Positions 10,427-42,848 of a stretch of DNA of 42,906 nucleotides are shown in pieces (within the stretch, counting starts at the first letter, position 1; each line of letters begins with the position of its first letter). The translations under genes and the position numbers were made by a program. The DNA is taken from assembly GCA_017458005.1 (NCBI GenBank), contig JAFTGH010000048.1, positions 1 through 42,906 of the forward strand. The letters are read 5' to 3'. This DNA is from Prevotella sp. GTDB taxonomy: Bacteria; Bacteroidota; Bacteroidia; Bacteroidales; Bacteroidaceae. Under the pieces are notes generated by a model. It was given only the letters and a program-made list of their open reading frames with translations, was not told the origin of the DNA and did not search any database.

Positions 10427-10468
10427 GCCTGTTTCCCTGTTATAGGGACAGTTAAAACTCAAAACGAT

Positions 10469-21836: not shown

Positions 21837-21873
21837 TGTTTGTTGTGTTTTTATTGGTTCGTACTAGTGTTTG

Positions 21874-21904
21874 CAAAGGTACATCATTTATTTCAAAGTG
21901 CAAA
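21874..21904 (-). promoter_or_regulatory. Promoter of the SASA esterase gene
   Basis: TTTG (21904-21901) and TACCTTTG (21881-21874) are separated by 19 bp on the minus strand. It lies at the end of the broken gene, so the last esterase gene can be expressed independently of the upstream operon. No TGTTAC boxes were seen here. Confidence 0.65.
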
Positions 21905-22259
21905 ATATGACAAAAACTTCTTGTGCGACTCTCGTATGAAGACGGGGATGTAGGTCTTGTCCTCCACTTTATTAAAATACAGGATGGGTTGGTCACCATT
22001 CGCCAACTCAGCAGCGAGGTGATGATGACCCGCCTCTAAGTGTACAATCTTTGAGCCAGTCGGGCAAGGTGCTTGTCGCACCAGGCTCCGCATATCGGAT
22101 CCGTACAGCATTGCTTGCCACATATTCTACGGTCAGTTCGGGGACAGCCTCCACCACCATGCGTCGTCCGTTAGGTGACTGTGCCTGCCATGCCGATACA
22201 GATAGACTAGTGAGCAGACTTGCTGTCAGGGTGAAGAGGAGACGGTGGTGCATATACAT
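21893..22259 (-). pseudogene. Remnant of a secreted protein gene, frame broken
   Basis: The segment begins with a good signal peptide (MYMHHRLLFTLTASLLTSLSVSAWQAQ) and a beta-rich stretch (VEAVPELTVEYVASNAVRIRYAEPG) that recalls the N-terminal domain of some glycoside hydrolases. After TLPDW the frame degenerates and stops (CTLRGGSSSPRC, stop about 22008). Another frame continues from about 22050 with plausible protein sequence (IVHLEAGHHHLAAELANGDQPILYFN, then YIPVFIRESHKKF) and stops at 21893. Together they look like about 110 residues of a much longer ancestral gene, frameshifted and deleted. It lies 6 nt after the double-esterase gene, in operon position. Too short to identify the family; GH31 is only a possibility. 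Confidence 0.5.
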
Positions 22260-22265
22260 AGATGA

Positions 22266-24017
22266 TTATTTACCGAATTTCTTGTTTTTCTCTATCGTCC
22301 AGTCTTTACGCTGTAGGATACCGCAGTTCTTTCCTTTGAACATAGCCGCAGCCTTTTGGTCACCCTTCAGTTGCCAGTCGAGCCAGGCAATGGCAATGGG
22401 ACTGAACTCGCCACCATGGGGATGGCGGTAGGTGCCACCATGACCAACGGGGTAGTTGACAGCACAGGCAGGAACATGGTTGATGCGATGGAAGTCATCC
22501 ATGCCATTCTCGTAGGCGATATCCTCTTTGCCGCCAAGGATATAGATGACTGGTGTGTGAATCTCTGTCAACTTCTCTTTGGGAGGCATGGGCATGCCGC
22601 CTACCGCCTGAGCGGCATTGGATGGCTTGAAGAGTCCGCTGTTGCAAATCATGAGGGTAGTGATACGAGGGTCTGCACAGTTGAAGAGCGTCTGCAGTCC
22701 ACCGCATGACATACCGGCGGCACAGATGTTCCTCACGTCAATCTTCTGATAATAGGGTGACTGGGGATTGGCATTCTGAGCCACTGCCCAGTCGATGCTC
22801 TCTATCTGCTGCTGGGTGGTAGACATCGGACCCTGATAAGGCTCTTCCTCCATGGGGATATAGCCTGTGGCGATGACGAGGTAACCGTGGGAGGCTATCT
22901 CGTTGAGGAACTTGAAATGCTCCCATGGGGAGTTAGTGCAGGCACCGTTACCCCATACCAAAACGGGAAGCGGATGCTCCTGACTGAAGGCGGAGAGGTT
23001 CTGCGGCGCGAAGATGGTATGGGCAGGGAGAGAGGCATCCTCTCTCATCACTGCCTTATAGGCACCAGTGCCACCCTCCTCGACAACCTTTTCCTTTACG
23101 GACTCTTTGAGGAAGAAATCAGTCATCCGACGGAAGGTGCTCTCATTGAAGGTCACAGGACCATGTTGTCCGTCAGGAACGGAGATAAAGTCTTCCAAAC
23201 GACCGCATTTCCTGAGAGCATTGGAGAAATTGACGCCCTGGCAGTGGGGTACCACATTGTCTGCCTCGCCATGGAGTACCAGGAAGCGTGGGTTACTGGC
23301 ACTGACATAGGTGATGGGACTGATGAGTGCCACCATGTCGGGAAGGTTGGCGGGCGCTCCACCGATGAGGGCTGCCTCAGGCGATTTCTCGTCGTTCACC
23401 GTCTCACATTTGTTCATGTGTGCCATGTCTACGGGACCGAACCAGTCGACGACGGCATCTACCGTACTCTTATAGTCGAGGTTGCCGCCGACGGTGCCTT
23501 CCAGATCAAGGGAGGTATTGCCCACCGTATATTTGCGGATACCATTGGTGACACCAGCCAGAGAGGCAAGATGTCCGCCAGAGGAGAATCCCGTGATACC
23601 GATGAACGAGGTGTCGAGTTTGTATTCCGCCGCATGGGCGCGGATGAAGCGAAGGGCAGCCTTCACGTCATGGATCTGAGCGGGAAACTTAGCGTCACCA
23701 CTGGCACGGTGGTTGATGCAGACGACGGCGAAGCCCGCCTCTACCAACGGCTTGCCAATTGAGAGGTAAGTCATAGCCTTCATGTTATTGGCGAACCAGG
23801 CACTGCCATAGATGGCGACGATGACTTTATAACTGGTCTGTTTCGTGTCTGGTAGGTAGATATCCATGCGGTGCGCCTCCATGTCGTCACCCGCATAGTT
23901 GATATCCTTGTAAGTCGCATTCGTCTCGGGCATCTGAAAACCTCCGAAACCGCCTGGCTGTGCCTCTGCGATGATTCCTGCAAAGGTAAAAAGCATAGTA
24001 ATGATAGTTTTTCTCAT
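22266..24017 (-). CDS. Secreted protein with two fused alpha/beta-hydrolase (esterase) domains
   Basis: A 583-residue secreted enzyme. Signal peptide MRKTIITMLFTFAGIIAEA. The first alpha/beta-hydrolase module (about 35-305) resembles BD-FAE/acetyl-esterase enzymes: oxyanion region YGSAW, nucleophile Ser145 in GFSSGG, probable acid Asp253 (HGEADNVVP) and His285 (DGQHG). The second module (about 325-583) is of dienelactone-hydrolase/chlorophyllase type: WGNGAC, nucleophile Ser437 in GMSCGG, and a C-terminal GHGGTY His. Both triads look intact, so the protein probably carries two active sites, perhaps for acetyl and hydroxycinnamoyl or other esters. It lies 19 nt downstream of the tandem GH43 gene. 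Exact substrates cannot be read from sequence. Confidence 0.85.
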   Translation of the reverse strand: MRKTIITMLFTFAGIIAEAQPGGFGGFQMPETNATYKDINYAGDDMEAHRMDIYLPDTKQTSYKVIVAIYGSAWFANNMKAMTYLSIGKPLVEAGFAVVCINHRASGDAKFPAQIHDVKAALRFIRAHAAEYKLDTSFIGITGFSSGGHLASLAGVTNGIRKYTVGNTSLDLEGTVGGNLDYKSTVDAVVDWFGPVDMAHMNKCETVNDEKSPEAALIGGAPANLPDMVALISPITYVSASNPRFLVLHGEADNVVPHCQGVNFSNALRKCGRLEDFISVPDGQHGPVTFNESTFRRMTDFFLKESVKEKVVEEGGTGAYKAVMREDASLPAHTIFAPQNLSAFSQEHPLPVLVWGNGACTNSPWEHFKFLNEIASHGYLVIATGYIPMEEEPYQGPMSTTQQQIESIDWAVAQNANPQSPYYQKIDVRNICAAGMSCGGLQTLFNCADPRITTLMICNSGLFKPSNAAQAVGGMPMPPKEKLTEIHTPVIYILGGKEDIAYENGMDDFHRINHVPACAVNYPVGHGGTYRHPHGGEFSPIAIAWLDWQLKGDQKAAAMFKGKNCGILQRKDWTIEKNKKFGK

Positions 24018-24036
24018 ATCGTTGTTATTTTAATGA

Positions 24037-26748: not shown

Positions 26749-26751
26749 ATC

Positions 26752-29745
26752 TTATTTTTTAGTATATTCGAAATTGTCGATATCCACATAGCCGCCTTTC
26801 TTCTTGGTGGCGTAACAGAAGATGCCGAATTTTGTCCCCATAAAGAAACGACGGTAGTCGAAGATCATACGATAGTCGGAGCCGATCTTTGTCCATTGCT
26901 CACCGTCAAGACTGTAATAGAAAGTGGCAAGATCCTGTCCGCCGCCATGCCCGTTCGGACGGAAATCACCGTCAACACGGAGCCAGATCTTAGAAGTGGT
27001 TAGCGGCATACTCTCTATCTCCTTTGTCTTGACATCCGTCACCTGCTTCTCCCTTTCAGTCAGACTGACCGATTGCTCTGTCATGGAGAGGGTCAGTCGC
27101 TTACCGCTCTTCTTGACAGTCAGCACACCAGCGTCTCCGTTGAAGGCGGCAAGACCAGCACAGTCGCCATCCTGCATCTTAGAGAGGTCCATCACGATAG
27201 CGCCGCTACAGGTGGGGCCCTCCATTCGTTGTGTCAGGGTGTTGGGAGCCTCATAGAGATTTGTCACTATTCGATTGGTCTTCAGGCGGAGATAGCCAGG
27301 ACGCTCCGTGAGCGACCATGCGTCATCGATGGGATTGTGGTTCCATTGCCAGTGCAGTCCGAGTGTCGGGTCAGCGAAGTCGTCACTTTTCACGATATGG
27401 GTCTCTGGCTGTCCGCAGACCACAGGGCGTACCGTCTCCGGCACCTTGCCGTTCTCGTCGCCTAACATCGGCCATCCGTTGATCCAGCGGCAAGGCATCA
27501 CTGTCAACACACGTCCTACACCGCCACGGTCCTGGAAGATGATGCCATACCAGTCACCATCCTGTGTATCCACGATAGTACCCTGTGCCTCATAGGGGAA
27601 GCCACCAAACTCTGATTCGAGGATCACCTGTTTCTCGTAGGGTCCGTGGATGTCATCGGCGCGATAGCATACCTCACGGCGATGCCTGCCTGGAGCCCAT
27701 ACATGTGAGATCATGAGGAGATAGTATTTCCCGTTATGCTTGATCATCCTGCTGCCCTCCAAGAGTCCTGTCTCGTCTTCCTCCCGTTGGAATATCTGCT
27801 GGTGTGTTCCCTCGATGACATCCGAGAGATCGGGTTTCAGTTCCATCATCTCGCCAGTGCCATAGATGACATACACCCGGTCATCGTCATCGAAGAACAA
27901 GGAGCAGTCGTGGAAATGGCGCATGCGTGACACCAGTGTCCATGGACCTCTCGCCTTCTCTGCGGAGAAGATATAGGTGTCGCCCATGGCTCCTGCCTCG
28001 TTAGGGGCTAAGAGCGCATAGAATTTTCCGTTGTGGTATTTCAGGGAGGTAGCCCATTGCCCACGACCATAGACAGAGCCTTGTTGGAGGTCATATTTTG
28101 GAGAGTCTGTCAGACGGTCGAAGATATATCCTACCGTCTCCCAGTTCTTCAGGTCTTTCGACTGCATGATGGGGGCGCCAGGCATCAGGTGCATCGTGGT
28201 AGACACCAGATAGAAAGTGTCGTCCACACGGATGATATCGGGATCGGGTACATCCGCCCAGAGCATCGGGTTCTGGATGACAGATAAGGTGTTTTGTGGC
28301 TGTTGTTTGAAATTCCATTTGGAGTTATCACTCTGGAAGTCATATTTGGCGAGGGTGGGCGTGCTGTCACCTGCTGAGTAGAGACAGTATTCCTTGTTGT
28401 TCCCTTCTTGTCCAGGGATGGCGAAAGGCATGATGCGGTAGGTGCCATCAGTCAACTGCTCTATCCACCATAACTGACTGTCCTGACCCTCAAACGCTTT
28501 GGCAGAGACCTGCAGGTCAGCAGTTGCCGTCAGCGCACGGTTGGTGCCCTCGATATAGATTTCATAGAGCGGACCAGTGAGTCTTCCACCCGCCTGTGGT
28601 ACAGGCTTGATATGCCAATGCTGCCAAGGACGGAACATATAGTTGCTGCAACGGACAGCAATCTCACCTTCGGGCCAGGTACCGATGACATCTTCCAGTT
28701 TCTGGTTAGGAATAGCCTTCACAGGCTCGTTGGGATCCATCTGCCAGAAACGCTGGCGTTCCTGTTCCATACGGACAAAATCAACACCCAGTTCCAGACT
28801 ATAGCCACGACGCTCAGAGAGAATAGCAAAGGTACCTTCTTTGAGTCGTTCACCAGCCACAGGCCATCCGTTCTTCCACAACAGAGGGAGAATGCCTAAT
28901 ACAGAACGACCGCTGCGGTCGAAGTCTGCCTCGAAATGACAAGACATGACCTCCACACCCTCATCGACAATGGTACGTCCGAAATGTCCGGGTCCCGTCT
29001 TACGGTCGCCAGCGGCAATCACCATCCTGCCTCCACCATGGAACATGTCACGTCCTACATTGTCCATATAAGGACCCTCTACACTGCGAGAGCGTCCTAC
29101 GACGATATTATAAGTGGAGTTGACACCATCACAGCAGGTGCCGTGCGTTCCTAACAGGTAATACCAGCCGTCCCTATACAACAGGTCTGTTGCCTCACAG
29201 TCGATGGCGATGTCTTTCTCCTTATTGCCTTTCATCCTTTCCCCCGTAGTAGGATCCAGTTCGATGAGGCGTATAGTACCGAAATAAGTACCGTAACTCA
29301 CCCATAGCCTTCCTGTGGTAGGGTCGAGCAATAACCCTGGGTCAATAGCATCCTGGTCCTCCATGCCATCCGAGGAGCACACCTCGACAGGGGTGGTCCA
29401 TTTGAAATCGGGTGATTTCGGATCCAGTGTCTTGTTCCACATCGTCAGAATGCGACCGTTGTGTCCTCCCCCCAGTCCACCGCCAGTGGCGCCATAGATA
29501 CAGAGGTATCGGTCTCCTATCTTCAGCACATCAGGAGCAGCGCCGCCACCTGGGCGTTCCGCACCACTATGCCAGTTCCAGCCGTCTTCACTGATGAGTC
29601 CGCCGCCACCCGTTCCGAAGGTATAGTATTTCCCCTCGCACTCCGCAATGGTGGAGGGGTCATGAATATAGGGAGCACCCGTTTGTGCGTTTGCCGATAC
29701 GGCAAGGGTTAGTGCTGTGAGGATATGATATACGCTTTTCATCAT
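26752..29745 (-). CDS. Bifunctional GH43 - ricin-type lectin - GH43 enzyme
   Basis: A 997-residue secreted enzyme with two different GH43 propellers. The first (about 22-350) is arabinanase-like: APYIHDPSTI with base Asp29, Asp135 in QDAIDPG and acid Glu184 in CEATDLLYRDGWYYL. The middle (about 365-480) has a ricin-B-like lectin pattern (LTATADLQVSAKAFEGQDSQLWW). The second propeller (about 490-790) begins WADVPDPDIIRVDDTFYLVST, typical of arabinofuranosidase/xylosidase GH43 enzymes, and is followed by a concanavalin-like C-terminal domain (about 800-997, FADPTLGLHWQWNHNP, FYYSLDGEQWTKIG) seen in beta-xylosidases. The start codon overlaps the stop of the upstream GH43 gene by one base (TAATG), giving translational coupling; a second ATG three bases later would also do. 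Confidence 0.9.
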   Translation of the reverse strand: MMKSVYHILTALTLAVSANAQTGAPYIHDPSTIAECEGKYYTFGTGGGGLISEDGWNWHSGAERPGGGAAPDVLKIGDRYLCIYGATGGGLGGGHNGRILTMWNKTLDPKSPDFKWTTPVEVCSSDGMEDQDAIDPGLLLDPTTGRLWVSYGTYFGTIRLIELDPTTGERMKGNKEKDIAIDCEATDLLYRDGWYYLLGTHGTCCDGVNSTYNIVVGRSRSVEGPYMDNVGRDMFHGGGRMVIAAGDRKTGPGHFGRTIVDEGVEVMSCHFEADFDRSGRSVLGILPLLWKNGWPVAGERLKEGTFAILSERRGYSLELGVDFVRMEQERQRFWQMDPNEPVKAIPNQKLEDVIGTWPEGEIAVRCSNYMFRPWQHWHIKPVPQAGGRLTGPLYEIYIEGTNRALTATADLQVSAKAFEGQDSQLWWIEQLTDGTYRIMPFAIPGQEGNNKEYCLYSAGDSTPTLAKYDFQSDNSKWNFKQQPQNTLSVIQNPMLWADVPDPDIIRVDDTFYLVSTTMHLMPGAPIMQSKDLKNWETVGYIFDRLTDSPKYDLQQGSVYGRGQWATSLKYHNGKFYALLAPNEAGAMGDTYIFSAEKARGPWTLVSRMRHFHDCSLFFDDDDRVYVIYGTGEMMELKPDLSDVIEGTHQQIFQREEDETGLLEGSRMIKHNGKYYLLMISHVWAPGRHRREVCYRADDIHGPYEKQVILESEFGGFPYEAQGTIVDTQDGDWYGIIFQDRGGVGRVLTVMPCRWINGWPMLGDENGKVPETVRPVVCGQPETHIVKSDDFADPTLGLHWQWNHNPIDDAWSLTERPGYLRLKTNRIVTNLYEAPNTLTQRMEGPTCSGAIVMDLSKMQDGDCAGLAAFNGDAGVLTVKKSGKRLTLSMTEQSVSLTEREKQVTDVKTKEIESMPLTTSKIWLRVDGDFRPNGHGGGQDLATFYYSLDGEQWTKIGSDYRMIFDYRRFFMGTKFGIFCYATKKKGGYVDIDNFEYTKK

Positions 29746-31676
29746 TATTGTGCTTTAATCAAATAGTTCGTAACAGGTTTTCCTTTCTCATCGATGAAAC
29801 GGGCGCACATGTCACTCAGTCCAGGTCCGTTGACGACGGCAACACGCAGGATGTTACGTCCTTTCTTCAGTGTCAGGCGTCCGGACATGCCGTCGTCCTC
29901 CACCATACGGCGGTCGCCTTCGAGCAGCAAGACCTCCTCTCCGTTGAGCCACCACATCGAGGCACCGTTAGAGCCACACGCCAATCGGATGTTCTGCATC
30001 TCCTCGGAACAGTCGATGACCGTCTCGCACCAGTAGAAGGAGCCGTAGGTCTGCTTGCCGTACTTCTTGGCGAAGCGGAACAGTTTCATGTTATAGGTCT
30101 CACTGTCCAAGGCATACCATTTCCCTTTCTGTTTCGGCAATTTGGCAAGTTCGTTGCTGAACTTGTCGCGTAGCCATGAGTAGGTGAAGATGACGTTGGA
30201 GCGCACATCGACAGCGATAGGCTCCAACAACCGCCAGCGGCGGATAAAGCCGTCGTTGTCAGGTTGTGCCGTTGTCGTCGTGGCGGGAGCGAAATACTTG
30301 GGGCGGTTCTTGAACTGGAGCCAGTTGACGCTGACCGCCGCATTACCCTCATTGGTGATGACAATGTCTGTCACTCCCTTTGGAAGGTCTTCCAGTGATG
30401 CCGTCATCGTAAGCCACTGGTTGCTTTGGTCACGGCGGAAGGGTGTTGACATGCCAAGGAATCTCGTCTCGCTCTTGACCGTCATGGGGACCTTTGCGAT
30501 GATCTTGCCTTTCGCAGACTTCTGACGAACGTAAAACTCCGTATTGTCGGAAGCCTTGACATTGACGACGAGATAGCCGTCTGTCACAGCACTGAAATCC
30601 ACGTCGTTATAGCGGAGCCAACTGCCTTTTTGAGGGAGTGTCGCCTCTAAACCTAAGAAGGTGTTGACCGTATCAATGAGTTGTGTGGTCACATCACCGC
30701 TTGCCGTGCTATAGCGGTCTATCTCGACTCTCTCTGTGGCATGGTTGATGCCTACGCCACGTAGGGTGGGCTTCACCTCCTGTATCGTGCCGTCGGTATT
30801 GAAGGATACCTTCTCGATGCAGGCGGAACGCCGCTTGTCCATACTGGGTGAGAAGGTGTTATGATGGTAGAAGATATACCATTGACCCTGATATTGGAGG
30901 ATGCTGTGGTGGTTGGTCCAGCAGCCATTGGCATGCTCCGCCATGATGATACCTTTGAAGTCCCAAGGACCAAGCGGGGATTTTGACATCGCATAGGCAA
31001 GTGTCTCCGTCCCGTTCTCCTTGCGAACCCAAGGGAAAGTCAGGTAATACCAACCGTTGCGCTTAAAAGCGAAGGGACCTTCCTTGAAACCGTCAGGAAG
31101 ACCTTCCATCACCTGTCCGCCTACCTCTAACTCCACCATGTTCTCCTTTAGTCTCGCTCCTCTGATACCCATACCACTCCAATAGATATAGGCAGCACCA
31201 TCCTCATCGACGAGGACGCAGGGGTCGATACCTAATACCCCTTTGATGGGCTCAGCCAAACAGGTGAAAGGCCCCTCAGGGCTGTCGGCTGTCGCCACAC
31301 CGATGGCAAAGCCACGTCCGTTCTTGGGCGCATTAGGGAAGAAGAAATAGTATTTTCCGTTCTTGTAGACACAATCGGGTGCCCACATCGAATAGGCACT
31401 GGGATTTCCCCAGGGCACCGCCTCTTGTGAGAGGATCGTGCCGTGGTCTGTCCATGCTGTCAGGTTCTCAGAGGAGAAGACATGATAGTCTGCCATGCAG
31501 AACCAGTCCTGTCGTTGACCTTCTGGAGCGGGAATGTCATGGGAGGGGTAAACATATACCTTATTATTAAATACACGCGCAGTAGGATCAGCGGCAAACT
31601 GATCCCTGATGATGGGGTTTTGCGCTGATACTACCGCCGTGGTGAGTAATAATAAAGTCGAAATAGTTATTCTCAT
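29745..31676 (-). CDS. GH43 glycosidase with CBM6-like and C-terminal beta domains
   Basis: A 643-residue secreted glycosidase. Signal peptide MRITISTLLLLTTAVVSA. GH43 propeller (about 20-310) with the full catalytic triad: Asp30 (AADPT), Asp151 (GIDPCVLVDEDG) and Glu199 (KEGPFAFKRNG). A CBM6-like module (about 320-460) has VEIDRYSTASGDVTTQ and VSVNWLQFKN. The last part (about 475-643, RRWRLLEPIAVDVRSN, ACGSNGASMWWLNGEEVL) resembles galactose-binding-like beta domains in plant-polysaccharide enzymes. Probable alpha-L-arabinofuranosidase or beta-xylosidase acting on side chains. It begins 6 nt after the CE6-CE1 gene and its stop overlaps the next start by one base. Confidence 0.88.
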   Translation of the reverse strand: MRITISTLLLLTTAVVSAQNPIIRDQFAADPTARVFNNKVYVYPSHDIPAPEGQRQDWFCMADYHVFSSENLTAWTDHGTILSQEAVPWGNPSAYSMWAPDCVYKNGKYYFFFPNAPKNGRGFAIGVATADSPEGPFTCLAEPIKGVLGIDPCVLVDEDGAAYIYWSGMGIRGARLKENMVELEVGGQVMEGLPDGFKEGPFAFKRNGWYYLTFPWVRKENGTETLAYAMSKSPLGPWDFKGIIMAEHANGCWTNHHSILQYQGQWYIFYHHNTFSPSMDKRRSACIEKVSFNTDGTIQEVKPTLRGVGINHATERVEIDRYSTASGDVTTQLIDTVNTFLGLEATLPQKGSWLRYNDVDFSAVTDGYLVVNVKASDNTEFYVRQKSAKGKIIAKVPMTVKSETRFLGMSTPFRRDQSNQWLTMTASLEDLPKGVTDIVITNEGNAAVSVNWLQFKNRPKYFAPATTTTAQPDNDGFIRRWRLLEPIAVDVRSNVIFTYSWLRDKFSNELAKLPKQKGKWYALDSETYNMKLFRFAKKYGKQTYGSFYWCETVIDCSEEMQNIRLACGSNGASMWWLNGEEVLLLEGDRRMVEDDGMSGRLTLKKGRNILRVAVVNGPGLSDMCARFIDEKGKPVTNYLIKAQ

Positions 31677-31682
31677 AGGGGG

Positions 31683-33608
<1,926 letters not shown>

Positions 33609-33638: not shown

Positions 33639-33704
33639 CAAAGTTATCACTTTTTAGGCAGATATCAGTCATCAAATGTAATATAAATTTTGTGTGGTGT
33701 AACA
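33639..33704 (-). promoter_or_regulatory. Promoter and operator of the leftward esterase/GH43 operon
   Basis: On the minus strand TGTTAC (33704-33699), 15 bp, TATTAC (33683-33678), 31 bp, then the -7 box TAACTTTG (33646-33639). Box spacing (21 bp) and distance to the -7 box (37 bp) are identical to the promoters at 33727 and 35312. No TTTG at the -33 position, consistent with an activator-dependent promoter. Confidence 0.7.
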
Positions 33705-33726
33705 TTTTCGACCTCTTGGAACAAGA

Positions 33727-33792
33727 TGTTACACACGAAAAGTTTCGTGTTACTTCAGAACTTGCAACTTTCATAAATGAAGTGTAATTTTG
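33727..33792 (+). promoter_or_regulatory. Promoter and operator of the GH5 gene
   Basis: TGTTAC (33727-33732), 15 bp, TGTTAC (33748-33753), 31 bp, TAATTTTG (33785-33792). A weak TTG (33762-33764) is the only -33 candidate. Transcription should start near 33799, giving a leader of about 140 nt before the ATG at 33938. Confidence 0.75.
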
Positions 33793-33875
33793 CACCAGAA
33801 AACAGAAAAGCATTAATCAGCTTAGGTTAGATTTGAAATATTTGATTAGTAGTTATGCTAGTTATGGTTTTAGTC

Positions 33876-33905
33876 ATGGGGGGCTGACGTGAGTCACCTC
33901 CCCAT
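33876..33905 (+). promoter_or_regulatory. Stable hairpin in the GH5 leader RNA
   Basis: ATGGGGGG (33876-33883) pairs with CCTCCCCAT (33897-33905), and TGAC (33885-33888) with GTCA (33893-33896) around a GTGA tetraloop, leaving one C and one base unpaired. It lies 32 nt before the start codon and has no poly-U, so it is more likely an mRNA-stability or translation element than a terminator. Confidence 0.55.
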
Positions 33906-33937
33906 TTATATTGAAAACAATGTAAAATCAAAATAAG

Positions 33938-35323
33938 ATGAATAACTTGAAACGTAAAGCGCAGTTGCTATGTATGTTGCTGTTCCTCGGATGTGGGATG
34001 GCAATGTCCCAGTCGCTCCCAGCCTTGCATGTGGAGGGACAGTTCTTTGTTGACGCCAATGGGAAGCGAGTCAACCTCCATGGGTTTGCTCAGACCTTCA
34101 GCCCTTGGTTTAATGAGCAAGGTACTAAGTGGACAAACTATGATGTGAACGGATGCCTGAATTACAATAAAGGTATCATTGATAAGATTATGGCGGCTGG
34201 CTGGAAGATGACCTTCGTCCGTCAGCACATGGACCCCTATTGGAGTAATAATGTTCCTGCTGGCGTGTATTATGTTCCAGAGAGCGACATCCAGTATTTT
34301 GACTTTAACCGCTTCAAGCAATATTTGGATCAGGTCTTTGTCCCCATGGCGGAGTATGCCATTTCCAAAGGATTGTATGTGGTCATGCGCCCGCCTGGCG
34401 TCTGTCCTGACAATATCTCGGAGGGCGATGCCTACCAGCAGTATTTGCTGAAGGTATGGGGCTATGTGGCACAACATCCTAAGTTGAGGAACAATGGTGC
34501 TGTTCTCTTTGAACTTGCCAACGAGCCTATTAATATTATATATAATAGTGGTACGCGCGATGAGGCGATGACGAGGTATTTTCAGAAGATTGTCGATGAG
34601 ATGCGCAAGTACTGTAATAATATCCTGTTGATTCCAGGACTGGGCTGGCAGTCACAATACGCGGGATTTGCCAAATATCCGATACAAGGTGAGAACATCG
34701 GTTATGCCGTGCACTGCTATCCGGGTTGGTATAACGGTGGTCATGGCGATGATGATGTTGTCGTCAACTACAAAGATTTCAAGCGTGGATGGGAGGCGCA
34801 GATAGGTCCTGTCGCCGAGATGGCTCCTGTGGTGGTCACGGAAATGGACTGGGCTCCTTCAAAGTATAATTCCTCATGGGGAAAGTCCAATACCGGTGTG
34901 GCTGGCGGTGAGGGCTTCGGTGCCAATTTCATTCGTATAGCCGATGAGACATGTAATGTCAGTTGGCTGTTGTTTACCGATGGCAACTTGTTGGCAAACT
35001 ATAATGATGCCGCAGCCGATGGCAATACCTTCCTGACTGACCCGGAGGCATGTCCACGTCCCTGTTATCGTCGATTCCAATATTACGCCACGCAGGAGTA
35101 TAGTGACATGATCAATGATCCTGACTATGGGTATAAGCACGGGGAAGATCCTTCATCCTCCTTGGATGCTGATTTGAATGTGGATGGCGTTGACGAGATT
35201 GTCAGTCGGGAATACTTTACCCTTTCAGGTGCTCGGATTGTAACACAGCCCCATGGTATTTGTATCATTCGGGAGGTTACAAAGTCAGGAAAAACGCTTG
35301 TTTCCAAAAGATGTTACAAATAA
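33938..35323 (+). CDS. Secreted GH5-family glycoside hydrolase
   Basis: A 461-residue secreted endo-acting glycosidase of the (beta/alpha)8 GH5 family. Signal peptide region MNNLKRKAQLLCMLLFLGCGMAMSQ. Catalytic residues: acid/base Glu196 in FELANEP and nucleophile Glu302 in VVVTEMDW; HGF (48-50) and VHCYPGW (258-264) are further GH5 blocks. After the barrel (about residue 400) come a short acidic linker and a tail, EYFTLSGARI...GICIIREV...GKTLVSKRCYK, resembling T9SS sorting tails of Prevotella enzymes. The substrate (xylan, mannan or glucan) cannot be fixed from sequence; context favours hemicellulose. It has its own promoter with the TGTTAC operator. The last Cys-Tyr codons are themselves the distal TGTTAC box of the SusC promoter downstream. 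Confidence 0.9.
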   Translation: MNNLKRKAQLLCMLLFLGCGMAMSQSLPALHVEGQFFVDANGKRVNLHGFAQTFSPWFNEQGTKWTNYDVNGCLNYNKGIIDKIMAAGWKMTFVRQHMDPYWSNNVPAGVYYVPESDIQYFDFNRFKQYLDQVFVPMAEYAISKGLYVVMRPPGVCPDNISEGDAYQQYLLKVWGYVAQHPKLRNNGAVLFELANEPINIIYNSGTRDEAMTRYFQKIVDEMRKYCNNILLIPGLGWQSQYAGFAKYPIQGENIGYAVHCYPGWYNGGHGDDDVVVNYKDFKRGWEAQIGPVAEMAPVVVTEMDWAPSKYNSSWGKSNTGVAGGEGFGANFIRIADETCNVSWLLFTDGNLLANYNDAAADGNTFLTDPEACPRPCYRRFQYYATQEYSDMINDPDYGYKHGEDPSSSLDADLNVDGVDEIVSREYFTLSGARIVTQPHGICIIREVTKSGKTLVSKRCYK

Positions 35324-35377
35324 CAAAATCCGTGTTACATACGAGAAAAGGCAAATATATAAATATGTTTAATTTTG
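35312..35377 (+). promoter_or_regulatory. Promoter and operator of the SusC/SusD operon
   Basis: TGTTAC (35312-35317), 15 bp, TGTTAC (35333-35338), 31 bp, TAATTTTG (35370-35377), the same geometry as at 33727 and on the minus strand at 33704. The distal box lies in the last codons of the GH5 gene, before its TAA stop (35321-35323). No -33 TTTG. Start near 35384, about 73 nt before the SusC ATG. Confidence 0.75.
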
Positions 35378-35456
35378 CACTCGCAATGTTAAATGTAAAG
35401 TAAAAAGTCACATTAACACTAACAAAATATAAACCGATGAATCAAATTTAGTAACA

Positions 35457-38400
35457 ATGAGAAATCTAAAGCAATTGATCAAAAGGGCTGTCCCTACGGT
35501 GATGATGCTGATGGCATTTGTGCTTCAGATGCAAGCGCAAGGCGGTATCAAAGTCAAGGGTACAGTCGTTGACAACAACGCGGAGCCTCTGATAGGAGCC
35601 TCGGTTGTAGTGAAGGGAAACACTTCCCTTGGAACAGTGACTGATTTCGATGGTAACTTTGCTTTGACGGTTCCTTCTGAGTCTACGGTACTCGTAGTAT
35701 CGTATGTCGGAATGACCTCACGTGAAGTGAAAGTGGGCAAGGAGCGTAACCTTCGGATTACACTTCAAGATGACACTGAACTGGAAGAAGTCATCGTAGT
35801 AGGTTACGGTCAGCAGAAGAAAGCGTCTGTAGTAGGTGCTATCACCCAGACAACGGGTGAGACACTGCAGCGCGCCGCTGGTATTACAGACATTGGCTCT
35901 GCCCTGACGGGTAACTTGCCAGGTGTCGTAACAACAGCCTCTTCTGGTATTCCTGGTGAGGAAGACCCACAGATTATCATCCGTGGTCAGTCTTCATGGA
36001 ACAACTCTTCTCCACTGATCCTGGTGGATGGTATTGAGCGTCCGATGAGTAGTGTCGACATCCAGTCGGTGGCTACTATCTCTGTGTTGAAGGATGCCTC
36101 TGCCACTGCCGTTTATGGTGTGAAGGGTGCTAATGGTGTTATCCTGATTACCACCAAGCGTGGTACTGAAGGTAAGGCACAGATTGGTGTGACTGCTAAT
36201 GTCATCATGAAGATTCCTTCTATGTTGCCCGACAAGTATGACTCCTATGATGCCATGGTTGCTCGCAACGTAGCCGTAGAGCATGAGTTGAACCTCAATC
36301 CTGAGAGTTTTGCTTACATGAAGCCGATGAGTTTCATCGAGAACTATCGTAACCAGACCACGGTGGAGCAGCGCGAGCGTTATCCGAATGTTGACTGGCA
36401 GCGTGCGATGTTCAAGGATTATACCATGTCTTATAATGCTAACTTGAACGTATCAGGTGGTACGAAGTTCGTGAAGTACTTCGCTTCTGTCGATTTCGTC
36501 AGCGAGGGTGACCTGTTCAAGAGTTTCCCCACTGGTCGTCATTACGATCGTTCTATCTCATTTAATCGCGTGAACGTGCGCTCGAACCTTGACTTTAATA
36601 TCACCAAGACGACTGTCCTGAAAGTGAATATCGCTGGTTCGAATGGTAAGCAGACCAACCCTTGGGAGCGTGGTCACGAGTGGGATAATGGTTCTTCGCT
36701 GGGTTGGCAGATGTCTCAGATGTGGGCAGGTGTCTATAACATCTCTCCTGATGCTTTCTTGCCACAGTATAGTGATGGCTCTTGGGGCTTCCTGCCTGGT
36801 TCTACCAATGTCAGCAACTCCGCGCAGACCTCTTCTATCGGTGGTGTGCAGACCATCACGACAACCCGTATTAATACCGACTTCGTTCTGGAGCAGAAAC
36901 TCGATTTCATCATCAAGGGTCTGTCTATGCGTGGCATGGTTGCTTGGGATAACGTGTTTGTGGAGGATCGTCGCGGTATCGCCGACTTGTATAACGACCC
37001 ACAGTTGAAGTGGATCGACCCAGAGACGGGTATTGCCCAGTATAAGCAGCCTTATGAGGGTTACGACCGTTTCGACTACACCATGGGTAACAAGTGGAGT
37101 ACACAAGGTGGTGAGGTTAACGACTGGCGTACGCAGCGCAACCTGAACTATCAACTCCAACTCAACTGGGGTCGTCAGTTCGGACTCCATGATGTCACGG
37201 CGATGGTCAACTGGGGTCGTCAGGAATACGCACAGGGTTCTATGATTCCAAGTTATCGTGAGGACTGGGTATTCCGTGCTACTTATAATTACGCAGGTAA
37301 ATACTCTTTCGAGTACAACGGTGCCTATAACGGTTCTGAGAAGTTCTCGAAGGACAACCGTTTCGCATTCTTCCATTCAGGTGCTATCGGCTGGACCATC
37401 AGTGAGGAGCCGTTCATGAAGTACCTGCGTGAGAAGCATATCATCGACATGTTGAAGTTCCGTACTTCTTATGGTGAGATCGGTGATGACAATGTCAATG
37501 CTCGTTTCATGTACATGACACAGTGGGCATACGGTGGACATACCTCTCTGGATGTCACTCAGGGTGAGTCGCCTTATGAGTGGTATCGTGAGGCTACTGT
37601 AGGTAACCCCAATGTGCACTGGGAGAAAGTGAAGAAGTTCAACTTTGGTATTGACTATGGTTTCTTGGGTGGTTTGATCGCTGGTTCGTTCGATATCTTC
37701 CGTGACAAGCGTGTGGATATTCTGGTAGCGGGCTCCCGTCAGGTTCCCACTTACTTTGGTCAGGCTGCCGCTTTGGTAAACCAGGGCGAGGTAAAGACAC
37801 ATGGTTATGAGTTGGAGGTTCGCTTCAACAAGGTGTTCGCCAACAAGATGCGTCTGTGGGCAAACATGAGCATGACCCATGCCACCAACGAGGTGATCAT
37901 GCGTGATGACCCTGCTTTGCTGCCCAGTTATCGTAAGCAGGAGGGCTATGCTATCGGTCAGACTCATTCATTCATCGACAAGGGTATGATGCAGACCTAT
38001 GATGACCTGTACGGCTCACCAAAGCATGATACCAGTGATGGTCAGAAACTGCCTGGTGACTACTACATCGTAGACTTCAACGGTGATGGTGTCGTCGACA
38101 ACACGAATGATAATGTGCCTTATGGCTTCACAGGTTCTCCACAGAACACCTATAACGCCACGATTGGTTTTGAGTGGAAGGGCTTCAGTTGCTTCGCACA
38201 GTTCTATGGTGTTACCAACGTAACCCGTGACGTGACGATGATCAGTCTGTCTGACCCAATGCTTGCCAATGTCTATGATCAGGGAACATGGTGGAGCACT
38301 GACCACGCTAATGCAGAGGTGCTGACCCCACGTTTCAACTCTAAACCCTCTTATTATTATGGTACGCAGTATCTTTGCGACGGTAGTTATATCCGTCTGA

Positions 38401-38609
38401 AGAACGTCGAGGTAGCCTATACCTTCACACAGCCTTGGGTTCGTAAGTTGGGTATCAAGGACCTGAAAGTCTATGTCAGTGGTAACAACCTCTGGCTCTG
38501 GACCCGCATGCCTGATGACCGTGAGTCGAACTTCTCAAGTAATGGTGGTGCCACGGGTGCTTATCCAACCGTGAAGCGTATCAACTTTGGTGTAAAGTTC
38601 AACCTGTAA
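35457..38609 (+). CDS. susC: SusC/RagA-family TonB-linked outer-membrane glycan transporter
   Basis: A 1050-residue outer-membrane importer of oligosaccharides that works with the SusD lipoprotein encoded next. Signal peptide to about residue 28 (MLMAFVLQMQAQG). Carboxypeptidase-regulatory-like domain (about 30-112, VKGTVVDNNAEPLIGASVVVKG). TonB box/linker LEEVIVVGYGQQKKASVVGAI (about 117-137), the typical SusC signature. Plug to about 240 (GQSSWNNSSPLILVDGIERP, LKDASATAVYGVKGANGVILITTKRG), then a full barrel to the C-terminal VKRINFGVKFNL. Full length and intact. Driven by the TGTTAC-type promoter. With the following SusD and SusC-like genes it matches the order of the xylan utilisation system xusA-xusB-xusC, a plausible but unproven identity. 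Confidence 0.95.
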   Translation: MRNLKQLIKRAVPTVMMLMAFVLQMQAQGGIKVKGTVVDNNAEPLIGASVVVKGNTSLGTVTDFDGNFALTVPSESTVLVVSYVGMTSREVKVGKERNLRITLQDDTELEEVIVVGYGQQKKASVVGAITQTTGETLQRAAGITDIGSALTGNLPGVVTTASSGIPGEEDPQIIIRGQSSWNNSSPLILVDGIERPMSSVDIQSVATISVLKDASATAVYGVKGANGVILITTKRGTEGKAQIGVTANVIMKIPSMLPDKYDSYDAMVARNVAVEHELNLNPESFAYMKPMSFIENYRNQTTVEQRERYPNVDWQRAMFKDYTMSYNANLNVSGGTKFVKYFASVDFVSEGDLFKSFPTGRHYDRSISFNRVNVRSNLDFNITKTTVLKVNIAGSNGKQTNPWERGHEWDNGSSLGWQMSQMWAGVYNISPDAFLPQYSDGSWGFLPGSTNVSNSAQTSSIGGVQTITTTRINTDFVLEQKLDFIIKGLSMRGMVAWDNVFVEDRRGIADLYNDPQLKWIDPETGIAQYKQPYEGYDRFDYTMGNKWSTQGGEVNDWRTQRNLNYQLQLNWGRQFGLHDVTAMVNWGRQEYAQGSMIPSYREDWVFRATYNYAGKYSFEYNGAYNGSEKFSKDNRFAFFHSGAIGWTISEEPFMKYLREKHIIDMLKFRTSYGEIGDDNVNARFMYMTQWAYGGHTSLDVTQGESPYEWYREATVGNPNVHWEKVKKFNFGIDYGFLGGLIAGSFDIFRDKRVDILVAGSRQVPTYFGQAAALVNQGEVKTHGYELEVRFNKVFANKMRLWANMSMTHATNEVIMRDDPALLPSYRKQEGYAIGQTHSFIDKGMMQTYDDLYGSPKHDTSDGQKLPGDYYIVDFNGDGVVDNTNDNVPYGFTGSPQNTYNATIGFEWKGFSCFAQFYGVTNVTRDVTMISLSDPMLANVYDQGTWWSTDHANAEVLTPRFNSKPSYYYGTQYLCDGSYIRLKNVEVAYTFTQPWVRKLGIKDLKVYVSGNNLWLWTRMPDDRESNFSSNGGATGAYPTVKRINFGVKFNL

Positions 38610-38645: not shown

Positions 38646-40631
38646 ATGAGAACAAATATATTATATGAGGCAAAAAGGAGGGTAAAGGTTGTTTTACCTT
38701 TTTACCTTCTTACCTTTTTACCTTTGGTATCTTGCTCCGATTACTTGGACAAGACACCAGACTCGGACGTGAACCCTGAGATGGCATTCCAGAACTTCAC
38801 CAGTTTCCAGGGCTTTGTAGAGGAGTCTTACAACTGTATTCCCAACAAGGAGTCAAACTACTGGTGCTGTACTTTCAACTGGGGTGAGGACGAGTTGATG
38901 AACACTGGTGGTGGCGACACCCATGTGACCGCTCACTTTGACTTAGGTGACTATCGTAACTGGTATTCAAACGATCAGAGTTATCTGCATCGTACTGCCA
39001 GTGAGTTAAACTCTACGAAGACAGATAAGTTTGCCCACTCTTTGGAGCATGCATGGTATTGCATCCGTAAGATGAACCTCGGTTTGGAGAATCTGGACAA
39101 GATGACCAATGCGACACAGGAGGAGAAGAACCTTATCAAAGGTCAGTTGCTCTTCTTCCGTGCTTGGTGGCATTTGGAGCAGATGGTATGGTTCGGTGGT
39201 CTGCCTTATGTTGATCATACGATTGCCGCTGATGGTCCTTTCGACCTGCCACGTCTCTCCTTCCAGGAATGTGCGGAGAAATGTGCGGAGGATTTCCGTG
39301 CCGCTGCCGACCTGCTGCCCGACAACTGGGAGAACACTGCCACAGGCAAGCGTACACCGGGTCACAACGACCTGCGTATCACGAAAGTTTGCGCTCTTGC
39401 CTATATGGGTAAGGCTCTCTTGTGGTCTGCCTCTCCATTGAATGAGATTGGCGCACAGACAGGTGCTTCTAAGAATGGCAAGACTTACCAGTATAATGCA
39501 CAAATTGCTGGACGTGCTGCTGATGCGCTCGCTGAGGCAATCGCTGATATTGAGAGTGGTAAGACTCCTTACGCTCTTGCTGAGTATAAGTATGAGGATA
39601 TCTACAATCATGTTAGAGACAAGAGTTCTAACTCTAACTACTCTGATATTTTCTATACGACCGGTCAGAGTTGGAGAATGCCTGGTGGCGTAGAGGCTGT
39701 CATGCGTGGTCCGATGCCTGATATCAATGGCTCTAACTGGAACTTCGCTAAGTTGTGGGGTCCGAAGGTGAACAACCTCGTAGAGCACGACGCTATCATC
39801 CACATGCCAACAGCAAACTATATTAACTATGCTTATGGTATGGAGAACGGTCTGCCTTTGGACGACCCAGACTCTGGTTTCGACCCGACACATCCATTTA
39901 AGAACCGTGACCCACGTTTCTATCATGACATCATGTTCGACGGCTTTAAGTTCCTGAACACCACACCATCAGATGCCGATAAAGGCTTCCAGTACCTGGA
40001 GATGTTTACGGGTGGTAACATGGTTCCTACAGGTAATCCTGCCCGTTCAGCCGATGGTAGCCGTACAGGTTACTTCTGCCAGAAGTTGGTTCCCCACCAG
40101 TGTAACAAGTACGATGGTATGTACAACTGGGGTGGTGCTCTGCAGACCTATCTGCCTTACCTCCGTGTAGCAGACATCTATCTAATGTATGCAGAGGCTT
40201 GCGCAGCCGCAGGTGGTGCTTCTTATAAGAGCAGCAAATGCTCTCTTACCGCTGCTGATGCGATCAACGTGCTTCGTGACCGTGTAGGTGCAAGACATGT
40301 TGCCGACAAGTTCCTTTCCGATAAGAATAAGTTCATGGACGAGGTTCGTCGTGAGCGTGCTTGTGAACTTGCCTTCGAGGGCTTCCGCTGGAATGACTTG
40401 CAGCGTTGGCTGCTCCTCACAGAGGCTCCTTACAATGTCAAGACCCGTCAGGAGTTCCGTCGTGTGGGTAACTTCGACTATACGAAGGATGATCCTCGTG
40501 ATGCTGAGGTTTCTGGTTGGAGCGAGACAACTATCGTGGAGCGTTCCTTCGGAACTAAACACTATCTGCTGCCTCTGAAGGATGATGAGACATTCCTCTA
40601 TGATGAGTATCCTCAGAATCCTGGATGGTAA
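38646..40631 (+). CDS. susD: SusD/RagB-family outer-membrane glycan-binding lipoprotein
   Basis: A 661-residue surface lipoprotein that binds oligosaccharide and caps the SusC barrel. The signal peptide is odd: a long n-region MRTNILYEAKRRVK, then VLPFYLLTFLPLVSC with lipidated Cys30, encoded by the TTTTTACC microsatellite. After the Cys come SDYLDKTPDSDV (typical SusD start), an N-terminal SusD-like domain with TPR helices (about 45-260, LIKGQLLFFRAWWHLEQM) and the RagB/SusD C-terminal domain (about 350-661) with LRVADIYLMYAEACAAAGG and RRERACELAFEGFRWNDLQRWL, both diagnostic. Some 36 bp separate it from SusC. Confidence 0.95.
   Translation: MRTNILYEAKRRVKVVLPFYLLTFLPLVSCSDYLDKTPDSDVNPEMAFQNFTSFQGFVEESYNCIPNKESNYWCCTFNWGEDELMNTGGGDTHVTAHFDLGDYRNWYSNDQSYLHRTASELNSTKTDKFAHSLEHAWYCIRKMNLGLENLDKMTNATQEEKNLIKGQLLFFRAWWHLEQMVWFGGLPYVDHTIAADGPFDLPRLSFQECAEKCAEDFRAAADLLPDNWENTATGKRTPGHNDLRITKVCALAYMGKALLWSASPLNEIGAQTGASKNGKTYQYNAQIAGRAADALAEAIADIESGKTPYALAEYKYEDIYNHVRDKSSNSNYSDIFYTTGQSWRMPGGVEAVMRGPMPDINGSNWNFAKLWGPKVNNLVEHDAIIHMPTANYINYAYGMENGLPLDDPDSGFDPTHPFKNRDPRFYHDIMFDGFKFLNTTPSDADKGFQYLEMFTGGNMVPTGNPARSADGSRTGYFCQKLVPHQCNKYDGMYNWGGALQTYLPYLRVADIYLMYAEACAAAGGASYKSSKCSLTAADAINVLRDRVGARHVADKFLSDKNKFMDEVRRERACELAFEGFRWNDLQRWLLLTEAPYNVKTRQEFRRVGNFDYTKDDPRDAEVSGWSETTIVERSFGTKHYLLPLKDDETFLYDEYPQNPGW
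38691..38726. repeat. Octamer microsatellite encoding the SusD signal-peptide core
   Basis: TTTTTACC-type octamers on the plus strand encode VLPFYLLTFLPL. The same octamer encodes FLPFYLFTFLLL in the unrelated lipoprotein at 5604-6602. A gain or loss of one copy would frameshift SusD before its lipobox. Confidence 0.85.
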
Positions 40632-40661: not shown

Positions 40662-42848
40662 ATGATTACCAAAAATATTAAATATGCCTCATTGGCTCTC
40701 TGTCTGACAGTCGCTTTACCTGCTGCGGCTCAGATTGAGACTGGCACGGACTCACTCGTCAATGTTGCTTTCCGCAAGGTGGCACAGGATGATGTGCTGG
40801 GTGGTGTCTCGTCCATCAACTACCGAGAACTGATGAAGAAGAACTATAATACGTATAGTCTTGATAATATGCAGGGCTATGTGGCTGGTTTCACTGGTGC
40901 AGGTCTGTGGGGTCTTGAAGGTTCTTCCGACTATAGTTCCGACAATGTCCCCAATGGTATGCTGGTTTTGATTGACGGTGTGCCTCGTGCTGCTAATAAC
41001 GTGAAACCTGATGAGATTGAGGACATCACCTTCTTGAAAGGTGCGCAGGCTGTGGTGCTCTATGGTAGCCGTGCTGCCAAGGGTGTTGTGTTGATTACCA
41101 CCAAGCGTGGTCAGGTGACAGACGGTCTGCATGTCAATGTCCGTGCCAACACTGGTTGGGCAGTGGCTAAGAGTTATCCTGAGTACCTGGGCTCCGCAGA
41201 GTATATGACCCTTTATAACGAGGCTCGTCTGAACGACGGAATGGATGCGCTCTATTCCCAGGAGGACATCTATAACACGGCAACGGGTTTGAATCCTTAT
41301 CGCTATCCGAACGTGAATTTCTATTCTTCTGATTTTATCAAGAAGTCATACAACCGTTCTGATGTGACAGCGGAGATAGAGGGTGGTAACGATCGCGCCA
41401 AGTTCTATGCCAACGTCAGTTACTATCGTCAGGGTGACTTCCGTAACTTCGGTGAGGCAGAGAACAATTTCGTTGACCGTTTCAATGTACGTGGTAACGT
41501 GGACATGAAGATCAAAAACTTCATTACGGCCTTTGTCAATGCCAATGCCACTTACTATAACTCTCGCGGTACCAATGGCGCAGGTTTCTGGTCACAGGCT
41601 GCCACGATGCGTCCTAACCGTATCAGTCCGCTGATTCCACTGAGTTATCTGGATGAGAACGCTGTTGCCGCTAAGACGATGCTTGCTGCATCCAACAACA
41701 TTATCAATGGCTGTTTCCTTGCAGGATCACAGACCGATCGCACCAACGTGTTCGCGGATATGTATTCTGCTGGTTACAATACATGGACCAGCCGTCAGTT
41801 CCAGTTTGACGCAGGTGTGAATGTTGACTTGGGCTCTCTGCTGAAAGGCTTGAGTTTCCATGCATTGGTAGGTGTTGACTATGCTACTACTTATTCGACA
41901 TCGTTTAATAACACCTATGCTACCTATGAGCCAACATGGAGCACCTATAACGGACAGGATGTGATTGTTGCTTTGAACAACCATGAGACGAAGGATGAGA
42001 AATCTGGTGTGCAGAACATCAGTGGCTCTACTGATAACCAGATGATAGCCTTTAACGCTCACTTCGATTACAACCGTACGTTTAATGACGTTCATAATGT
42101 CAGTGCGATTGCCGTTGTCAATGGATGGCAGCAGACCGTCTCTGGTGTTTACCACAAACTGAGCAACGCCAACTTAGGTTTCCAGGCTTCTTATAACTAC
42201 GCCAAGAAATACTATGCCGACCTTGCTATCGCCGCTCCATGGTCAGCACGTCTGCCAGAAGGTCATCGTGCTGGTGTCTCTCCCTCTTTCACCTTAGGTT
42301 GGAACATCGCCAAGGAGCGTTTCATGGAAAGCCAGAGCATCTTCGATGAACTGAAGATCAGTGCCAGTTACAGTGACCTGAAGACTGATTTGGGTATTAA
42401 TGATTACTACATGTATCTTGCTAACTACCAGAGTGGTGGTTGGTGGGACTGGAATGGTGAGACAGGTCACTCTGCCGTGCAGTCAAAGCGTGGTGGTAAC
42501 GACGACTTCACCTATCTCCATCGCAAGGAGTTCTCCGTTAGTTTGCATGCCGCTTTGTTGAAGCGTGCGTTGACAGCCGACTTCTCTTTCTTCACCAATA
42601 AGATTACTGGTGGAATCATTACCGCAAGTAACCAGATGCCAAGTTACTTCAAGGTGTACTATCCTGAGTCCTCTTTCCTGCCATACATCAACTTCAACGA
42701 GGACAGCCGCACAGGTTTCGACCTTGCCCTGAACTATAAGAAGGATTTTGGTAAGGACTTCGGAATGGGCTTATTGGTCATTTTGAGTGGTGAAATCTTT
42801 GGAAACGTCGATAAATACTTACCTTTGCAGCATTTATTATTAATATGA
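40662..42848 (+). CDS. Second SusC-like TonB-linked receptor, 3' end replaced (truncated)
   Basis: A 728-residue reading frame of SusC type, 30 bp after SusD. Signal MITKNIKYASLALCLTVALPAAA. It lacks the N-terminal carboxypeptidase-regulatory domain and passes directly to a plug (about 45-160, SSDYSSDNVPNGMLVLIDGVPRA, LKGAQAVVLYGSRAAKGVVLITTKRG), a form often found as the third gene of a SusC-SusD-SusC-SusD operon. Barrel strands continue normally to about residue 705 (LALNYKKDFGKDFGMGL). After that the sequence is unlike SusC (LVILSGEIFGNVDKYLPLQHLLLI) and stops about 200-300 residues short of the family length. The downstream DNA holds a promoter-like signal, so the gene was probably interrupted by an insertion or rearrangement. 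The product would lack the last strands and is likely non-functional. Confidence 0.8.
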   Translation: MITKNIKYASLALCLTVALPAAAQIETGTDSLVNVAFRKVAQDDVLGGVSSINYRELMKKNYNTYSLDNMQGYVAGFTGAGLWGLEGSSDYSSDNVPNGMLVLIDGVPRAANNVKPDEIEDITFLKGAQAVVLYGSRAAKGVVLITTKRGQVTDGLHVNVRANTGWAVAKSYPEYLGSAEYMTLYNEARLNDGMDALYSQEDIYNTATGLNPYRYPNVNFYSSDFIKKSYNRSDVTAEIEGGNDRAKFYANVSYYRQGDFRNFGEAENNFVDRFNVRGNVDMKIKNFITAFVNANATYYNSRGTNGAGFWSQAATMRPNRISPLIPLSYLDENAVAAKTMLAASNNIINGCFLAGSQTDRTNVFADMYSAGYNTWTSRQFQFDAGVNVDLGSLLKGLSFHALVGVDYATTYSTSFNNTYATYEPTWSTYNGQDVIVALNNHETKDEKSGVQNISGSTDNQMIAFNAHFDYNRTFNDVHNVSAIAVVNGWQQTVSGVYHKLSNANLGFQASYNYAKKYYADLAIAAPWSARLPEGHRAGVSPSFTLGWNIAKERFMESQSIFDELKISASYSDLKTDLGINDYYMYLANYQSGGWWDWNGETGHSAVQSKRGGNDDFTYLHRKEFSVSLHAALLKRALTADFSFFTNKITGGIITASNQMPSYFKVYYPESSFLPYINFNEDSRTGFDLALNYKKDFGKDFGMGLLVILSGEIFGNVDKYLPLQHLLLI

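Follow-up and report, generated by a model that had tools for sequence, protein, structure and literature searches.

A tandem HTCS-type operator at three promoters of a Prevotella xylan-type locus, one of them preceding a conserved candidate small RNA

The window, by which we mean the whole 42,906-nucleotide stretch analysed (all of contig C21 of a Prevotella sp. assembly of 3,052,525 bp in 66 contigs), contains three copies of one operator-promoter geometry in a xylan-type polysaccharide utilisation locus. We consider it probable that a single hybrid two-component (HTCS) activator acts on the three operators and would thereby switch enzymes, SusC/SusD and a trans-acting small RNA together. 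As an example of a known architecture, the operator is well supported. What appears to be added here, judged from sequence, is its placement ahead of a conserved gene for a non-coding RNA within a xylan-type locus; in the open-licence PMC literature, a scope outside which the Segatella copri RNA atlas lies, we found no description of such an arrangement. The features of the locus are as follows.

20070..31676, minus: rest of the leftward cluster, with GH43-CBM6, GH43-GH43_C2, GH43-CBM6, BD-FAE esterase and SASA esterase (Pfam); the leftward operon would extend over this stretch
31683..33605, minus: two-domain esterase (SASA + Esterase; CE6-CE1 in the preliminary description), first gene of the leftward operon (Pfam)
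33639..33704, minus: CE6-CE1/GH43 operator and promoter (sequence, genome pattern search; conserved upstream of CE6-CE1 relatives); distal box 33704-33699, proximal box (TATTAC) 33683-33678, -7 box TAACTTTG 33646-33639
33727..33792, plus: operator and promoter of the small RNA (and GH5) (sequence, genome pattern search, relatives); distal box 33727-33732, proximal box 33748-33753, -7 box TAATTTTG 33785-33792
33793..33916, plus: conserved non-coding RNA (relatives, fold, covariation), probably starting at about 33796; conserved body 33818-33876, GUGA-capped hairpin 33876-33905, loop 33889-33892
33938..35323, plus: GH5 (Cellulase family) gene (Pfam)
35312..35377, plus: SusC/SusD operator and promoter (sequence, genome pattern search, relatives); boxes 35312-35317 and 35333-35338, -7 box TAATTTTG 35370-35377
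35437..35451, plus: short upstream ORF (ATG AAT CAA ATT TAG) before susC (sequence)
35457..38609, plus: SusC-like TonB-dependent transporter (Pfam)
38646..40631, plus: SusD-like protein (Pfam)
40662..42848, plus: second TonB-dependent-receptor-like ORF (Plug domain), near the contig end

The preliminary description had reported three pairs of boxes 21 bp apart, with the proximal box starting 37 bp before a TAnnTTTG box, and direct reading of the sequence showed all three copies, each with an A before and after the distal box. The exact pattern TRTTAC-N15-TRTTAC-N31-TAnnTTTG occurs in the genome only at these three sites, all in the xylan locus, and the reversed pattern has no exact match in these 3.05 Mb; by chance, 1.9e-4 matches are expected on both strands of the whole genome under a first-order Markov model of the window. 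Own-genome copies with one mismatch are absent and those with two mismatches number two, while at up to three mismatches the pattern and its reverse give 19 matches each. A relaxed pattern for finding further regulon members in this genome was therefore rejected as noise beyond two mismatches. One two-mismatch site, at C17:113823-113758 on the minus strand, lies about 56 bp before a CE1-like esterase gene and, judged by its place, is a plausible candidate member of the regulon.

Across 200 genomes of the genus, the pattern at up to one mismatch is present in 82, with 163 matches against 19 for the reversed pattern (a hand count); because these genomes are related, matches across them are not independent trials. 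When the distance to the -7 box was left free between 16 and 46, 59 of the 74 exact tandem sites had N31, five had N32 and ten fell elsewhere, and the reversed control gave nine sites, again counted by hand. A 59-site profile of the genus shows no TTTG-like signal at the -33 position, which agrees with the earlier remark that none of the three promoters has a good -33 box. Several columns that were not part of the search pattern are conserved in the 59 sites, namely A7 (47/59), A14 (52/59), A15 (53/59), A16 (48/59), A28 (53/59) and A36 (41/59), and the operator unit is therefore TGTTACA-N6-AAAgT-N3, repeated after 21 bp. The repeat had been read as two half-sites for an AraC-type domain. The tandem AraC-type operator stands, but the single box per unit does not, as each unit has two, TGTTACA and AAAgT. 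A spacing of about one helix turn between the boxes would match the paired helix-turn-helix motifs of a single AraC domain, and the two tandem units would match a dimer. With the -7 box taken as -11 to -4, the proximal unit would reach from about -48 to -33, and this may be why the -33 element is missing.

The HTCS operators of Bacteroides thetaiotaomicron are direct repeats of 21 bp on average, placed upstream of polysaccharide-locus operons; the portion of the source covered here gives this tandem architecture for 16 of 36 HTCSs and reads it as a dimer on one DNA face (PMC3878776). Two conserved direct-repeat sites about 21 bp apart are also what we found at the three promoters. The likeness drawn here is one of architecture, and, set against that portion of the B. 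thetaiotaomicron account, the sites here differ in the fixed 37 bp to the -7 box, the two-box unit and the small RNA target. The fixed operator-to-promoter distance gives a simple criterion by which HTCS regulons of this lineage can be predicted.

All three sites are kept in two relatives (L072 and L073), in which the divergent operator pair is 23 and 22 bp apart, respectively, compared with 23 bp in the window. For a broader view, we scanned the promoters of CE6-CE1 relatives in named genomes (the best 80 of 163, titled mostly as Prevotella or Prevotellaceae from ruminants), allowing N30-32 and setting aside one of the 80 loci for too little upstream sequence. Within these best 80 of 163, the operator at up to three mismatches was found at 26 of 79 CE6 promoters, against 0/79 for the reversed pattern, and on the divergent side at 11/79 against 1/79; the other 53 of 79 CE6 promoters have no operator at three mismatches. 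The expectation that the boxes are conserved at orthologous loci thus held for one part of the clade (the 26 promoters, and all three sites in L072 and L073) but not for the rest (the 53), and the operator appears to have been lost or altered there. Conservation upstream of orthologous glycan operons, a mark of HTCS operators, is accordingly present in part of the clade.

The SusC operator overlaps, at 35312-35323, the last codons and stop of the GH5 gene, and it does so in the same register in L072, L073 and L080. A coding constraint of the GH5 C-terminus was considered as the source of this conservation and rejected, because the operator persists in four loci without a preceding GH5 (L082, L083, L164 and L167).

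The regulator gene had been placed outside the window. This was confirmed, in that no HTCS is present among the window ORFs examined and none of the HTCS-type matches in the genome falls on C21. The locus is adjoined in four relatives (L079, L080, L082 and L083) by an ORF of 1331-1354 aa in divergent orientation, and that of L080 carries Reg_prop, Y_Y_Y, HisKA, HATPase_c, Response_reg and HTH_18 domains; an HTCS gene lies beside the locus in these four and in L164, L167 and L170, while the own copy is on contig C17. This copy (C17:94434-98427, minus; L084 4420-8428, minus) is divided between two reading frames whose ORFs overlap, one encoding a 1104-aa sensor-kinase and the other a 277-aa receiver-DBD; this may reflect a true split or an assembly error. 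Its DBD is identical to that of L080 at 106/126 residues, and it carries the SHIP form of the S/CHIP motif, which is described for HTCS receivers in the section of PMC11253607 covered.

In all 22 genomes of an ortholog test, which were chosen for having a site, we found one clear receiver-DBD ortholog with 67-100% identity; the next best matches reach 58% (one match) and otherwise 49% or less. In the 200 genus genomes, 87 have the ortholog (E <= 1e-85), 82 the operator and 70 both (odds ratio 35), and in a stricter set of 67 orthologs 59 co-occur with the operator (odds ratio again 35), although general richness in glycan loci is an uncontrolled confounder of these figures. From such sequence comparisons, the HTCS ortholog on contig C17 is the most likely regulator predicted for the three operators. 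Nine of the 22 ortholog loci have sites at up to one mismatch (10 in 370 kb, against none for the reversed pattern), and the remaining 13, the own locus included, have none nearby. The 20 paralog loci contain four sites at this threshold (298 kb), three of them by the 58%-identical paralog, and one-mismatch matches adjoin both this paralogous HTCS and a 46%-identical one. Between the own C17 HTCS and the next susC there is a perfect tandem pair, but it is 84 bp from the -7 box. The earlier claim of one HTCS-type activator for the locus is thus supported by the co-occurrence in 70 of 200 genomes, whereas a box exclusive to one regulator is not what we observed. As a separate observation, L171 (G106:C15) has four near-identical variant sites (TGTTACAAATGAATAG type) at 9223, 12932, 15474 and 16694 by the 58%-identical paralogous HTCS, which possibly represent a sister specificity.

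The sites might also be explained by more than one regulator, or by one other than the C17 HTCS, if several HTCS paralogs share TGTTAC half-sites. The one-mismatch sites by the 58%- and 46%-identical paralogs are what this would predict, and the split of the C17 gene and the 12 of 82 operator-bearing genomes without an ortholog at E <= 1e-85 point the same way. We nevertheless think it unlikely, given the one clear ortholog in each of the 22 genomes (67-100% identity, against 58% and then 49% or less for the next matches), the strong co-occurrence of operator and ortholog (glycan-locus richness being uncontrolled), and the presence of the ortholog in all 18 genomes with a strong match to the RNA described below. 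That the pattern is a chance alignment of AT-rich repeats is hardly credible: the equal counts of 19 at up to three mismatches in the own genome are in its favour, against which stand three exact copies in one locus where 0.0002 were expected, the 163 versus 19 matches in the genus and the retention of the sites at orthologous promoters.

The middle promoter had been assigned to the GH5 gene. GH5 does lie downstream of it, but a conserved non-coding RNA comes first and GH5 is an optional downstream gene: it follows the RNA in L221, L222, L223, L257, L271, L072, L075 and L080, and the RNA occurs with no GH5 downstream in L226, L079, L082, L083 and L167. The stretch downstream of the -7 box at 33785-33792 recurs in relatives. 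In eight relatives picked for having the RNA, its body is identical at 56-59/58-59 positions in seven (58/59 in L226, Prevotella sp. tf2-5) and at 32/52 in L271. With the near-clone L221 and also L271 left out, the same loci show 31-33/45 at the CE6 coding start and 5-10/21-22 in the inter-operator spacer, and the GH5 start, where GH5 follows the RNA (L222, L223, L257 and L072), reaches 30-35/49-58. Among the best 80 of 163 CE6-CE1 relatives, the RNA occupies the divergent position in seven loci (E < 2e-9), and weaker matches lie on the opposite strand in a further two. In L250, the match (5806-5912, plus) immediately precedes the CE6-CE1 gene and shares its strand instead of diverging from it. 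A small ORF in the RNA was considered and rejected, as ten sequences show no conserved frame, and the RNA has no match in Rfam.

Compared with 200 shuffles, the fold of the RNA has a z of -3.75 in the window, -1.48 in L079, -2.36 in L080, -2.51 in L082 and -2.64 in L083; that of L075 does not improve on its shuffles (-0.59). In the terminal hairpin, 93.2% of cells are paired over 21 sequences; three of 24 (L194, L196 and L200) had been mis-anchored on another loop. Six of seven hairpin pairs are changed on both sides, a value reached in 38 of 500 shuffles, and the 27 cells changed on both sides and the covariation of 0.636 (shuffles, 0.254 +/- 0.033) were each reached in none of 500; the alignment used in this test had also served to derive the structure. 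With respect to the layout of small RNAs, a covarying terminal hairpin is present and the RNA body of the window is itself folded. A terminator scan found no T-tailed terminator in the window, and the GH5 gene starts there 22 nt past the first T-rich run beyond the hairpin.

The association of this RNA with the operator was examined with a covariance model (R1) that contains no operator sequence. Of 200 genus genomes, 42 match it at E <= 0.01, and 18 loci do so at E < 1e-6; in 17 of these 18 strong loci the operator, at 0-4 mismatches, lies by the RNA start, at an offset of 0 or -1 except in L199 (24), L208 (6) and L202/L301 (-5). The remaining strong locus, L196, has only a degenerate operator with seven mismatches. 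Ten training loci of R1 had been found partly through the operator; all eight strong loci outside the training set have it, with 0, 1, 1, 2, 2, 2, 3 and 4 mismatches, and the four of L200 are close to the 5-8 mismatches of loci counted as lacking it. Among 12 weaker matches, L212 has the operator at one mismatch and 11 show 5-8 mismatches. The weak match of L209 (plus strand) has a four-mismatch site 18 nt further upstream, and in G127 the operator overlaps the weak match itself. The HTCS ortholog is present in all 18 genomes with a strong RNA match.

The RNA is a member of a wider family, most other members of which are without the operator. The weaker matches have UUAG-rich bodies and GUGA-capped hairpins in common, and several show a TAnnTTTG box at their start with the operator absent; among 14 further matches, the operator is found only in L301, while L309 has four mismatches. 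A second model (R2) finds 1-6 copies in each of 73 out of 100 genus genomes at E <= 0.01 and, in a family-wide draw, matches 20 of 201 genomes at E <= 0.001, ten in the own genus and ten in six other genera. Some of the weak family matches will be due to chance. The own genome has a second member at C9:6581-6680 (L318), with a plain TAACTTTG box and no operator. L211, L215, L216 and others form a second, almost invariant subfamily with a GTCGTGAGAC-type hairpin, which adjoins a tRNA gene in these three loci, and the L211 and L216 RNAs show sub-threshold similarity to Bacteroides BTnc231; the scores of two wider-family loci against this Rfam entry were 29.9 and 23.8 bits, below the cut-off of 80.4.

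An alternative is that the RNA is a cis-acting leader or attenuator of GH5, in which the hairpin would serve as a conditional terminator within the GH5 mRNA. The short distance of 22 nt between the post-hairpin T-rich run and GH5, the eight relatives with GH5 after the RNA and the want of a strong T tail all fit such a leader, but five relatives have the RNA with no GH5 downstream and conservation is much stronger in the RNA body than at the start of GH5, so that we regard the leader as doubtful. Still less probable, and in our judgement very unlikely, is that the stretch after the middle promoter acts as DNA, carrying binding sites of another regulator. Its body is almost invariant in the close clade and therefore holds no covariation information there, as a DNA element might; the hairpin, however, covaries (six of seven pairs changed on both sides) with its GUGA loop kept, and related RNAs elsewhere in the genus share the layout.

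In the circuit that we propose, with a trans-acting RNA, a dimer of an AraC-type hybrid two-component activator would bind the two tandem 21-bp units, TGTTACA-N6-AAAgT-N3. The proximal unit would end approximately where the missing -33 element would lie, and the bound protein would replace that contact and recruit RNA polymerase to TAnnTTTG. When a xylan oligosaccharide is sensed, two operons (CE6-CE1/GH43 and SusC/SusD) and a structured small RNA of about 115 nt would be turned on together, and GH5 would be expressed by read-through past the terminal hairpin of the RNA, at which transcripts would otherwise end. Like FopS and GibS, the RNA itself probably base-pairs with targets in trans. The simplest guess is a feedback or timing role on the same locus. 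We give about even chances to the broader proposal that xylan-sensing HTCSs of ruminant-gut Prevotella directly command a nearly invariant small RNA, the operator having been captured by a genus-wide RNA family (UUAG-rich body, GUGA-capped hairpin) that works with no RbpB-type protein. If this is true, the small RNA would be a built-in post-transcriptional arm of a polysaccharide locus; in the literature covered here, post-transcriptional tuning of Prevotella glycan loci is little known. The operator, the candidate activator and the small RNA gene can be read together from the sequence, which yields a testable circuit of signal, HTCS, and enzymes with small RNA, and the covariance models find the RNA across the genus.

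By its anatomy, the RNA resembles FopS, GibS and perhaps SrcF, and may be regarded as a candidate relative only. In B. theta, according to the part of PMC11697453 covered, FopS RNAs act as repressors of SusC translation, and the RRM protein RbpB antagonises them. The likeness to FopS, as that part presents it, lies in a paralogous small RNA family with a 5' stretch and a terminal hairpin that is tied to polysaccharide loci; FopS RNAs, however, have canonical promoters, pair with susC starts and have RbpB as a partner, whereas here we observed an HTCS-type operator, no significant susC pairing, no RRM_1 protein and no Rfam match (PMC11697453). GibS of B. thetaiotaomicron is likewise a sugar-responsive small RNA with a non-canonical promoter and a terminator, but its promoter PM2 is a -10/-30 motif and not a tandem 21-bp operator; it is likened here by its description in the excerpt covered (PMC7366714). 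Among rumen Prevotella, XynR of Prevotella bryantii is, by the title of its report, a multidomain positive regulator of xylanase genes. The small RNA SrcF of Segatella copri, a close relative, is reportedly controlled by fructans. A review describes SrcF (the RNA of El Mouali 2024), also likened here by a partial description, as affecting nutrient-uptake genes, polysaccharide loci included.

The search for targets of the RNA covered susC and the other gene starts. Complementarity to susC had been seen by eye, and susC was rejected as a target: in duplex folding against 500 shuffles and 129 gene starts, the pairing was not significant in eight of nine loci (p > 0.2), with L167 at p 0.03, and among the 129 starts that of susC took ranks between 14 and 125. 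A seed scan gave an 11-nt susC match with G-U pairs in five of six loci, below the 95% null (17.9 versus 18.6). In the CE6 5' leader, the same scan found a perfect 9-nt match in the window and in the near-clone L221 (score 20, above the 95% null); the match is 7 nt and below the 95% null in L222, L226 and L257, other sites appear in L223, L072 and L271, and it is not significant over all genes scanned. The CE6 leader is thus only a possible lead to a target. No RRM_1 protein was found in the own 92%-complete genome by a search that finds one in Bacteroides ihuae.

Several observations concern the genes around the operators. A short upstream ORF precedes susC, and an ATGAATCAAA-type leader recurs in relatives; several of them have a ATGAATCAAAATCTGTCAAAATGA-type leader, the stop of which overlaps the susC start and suggests translational coupling. 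The second TonB-receptor ORF may be truncated, because its stop lies 58 bp before the contig end and it is shorter, at 728 aa, than its counterparts of 931-1006 aa in relatives. At 10415-11773, the window also contains a gene of the serpin (protease inhibitor) family, as assigned by Pfam.
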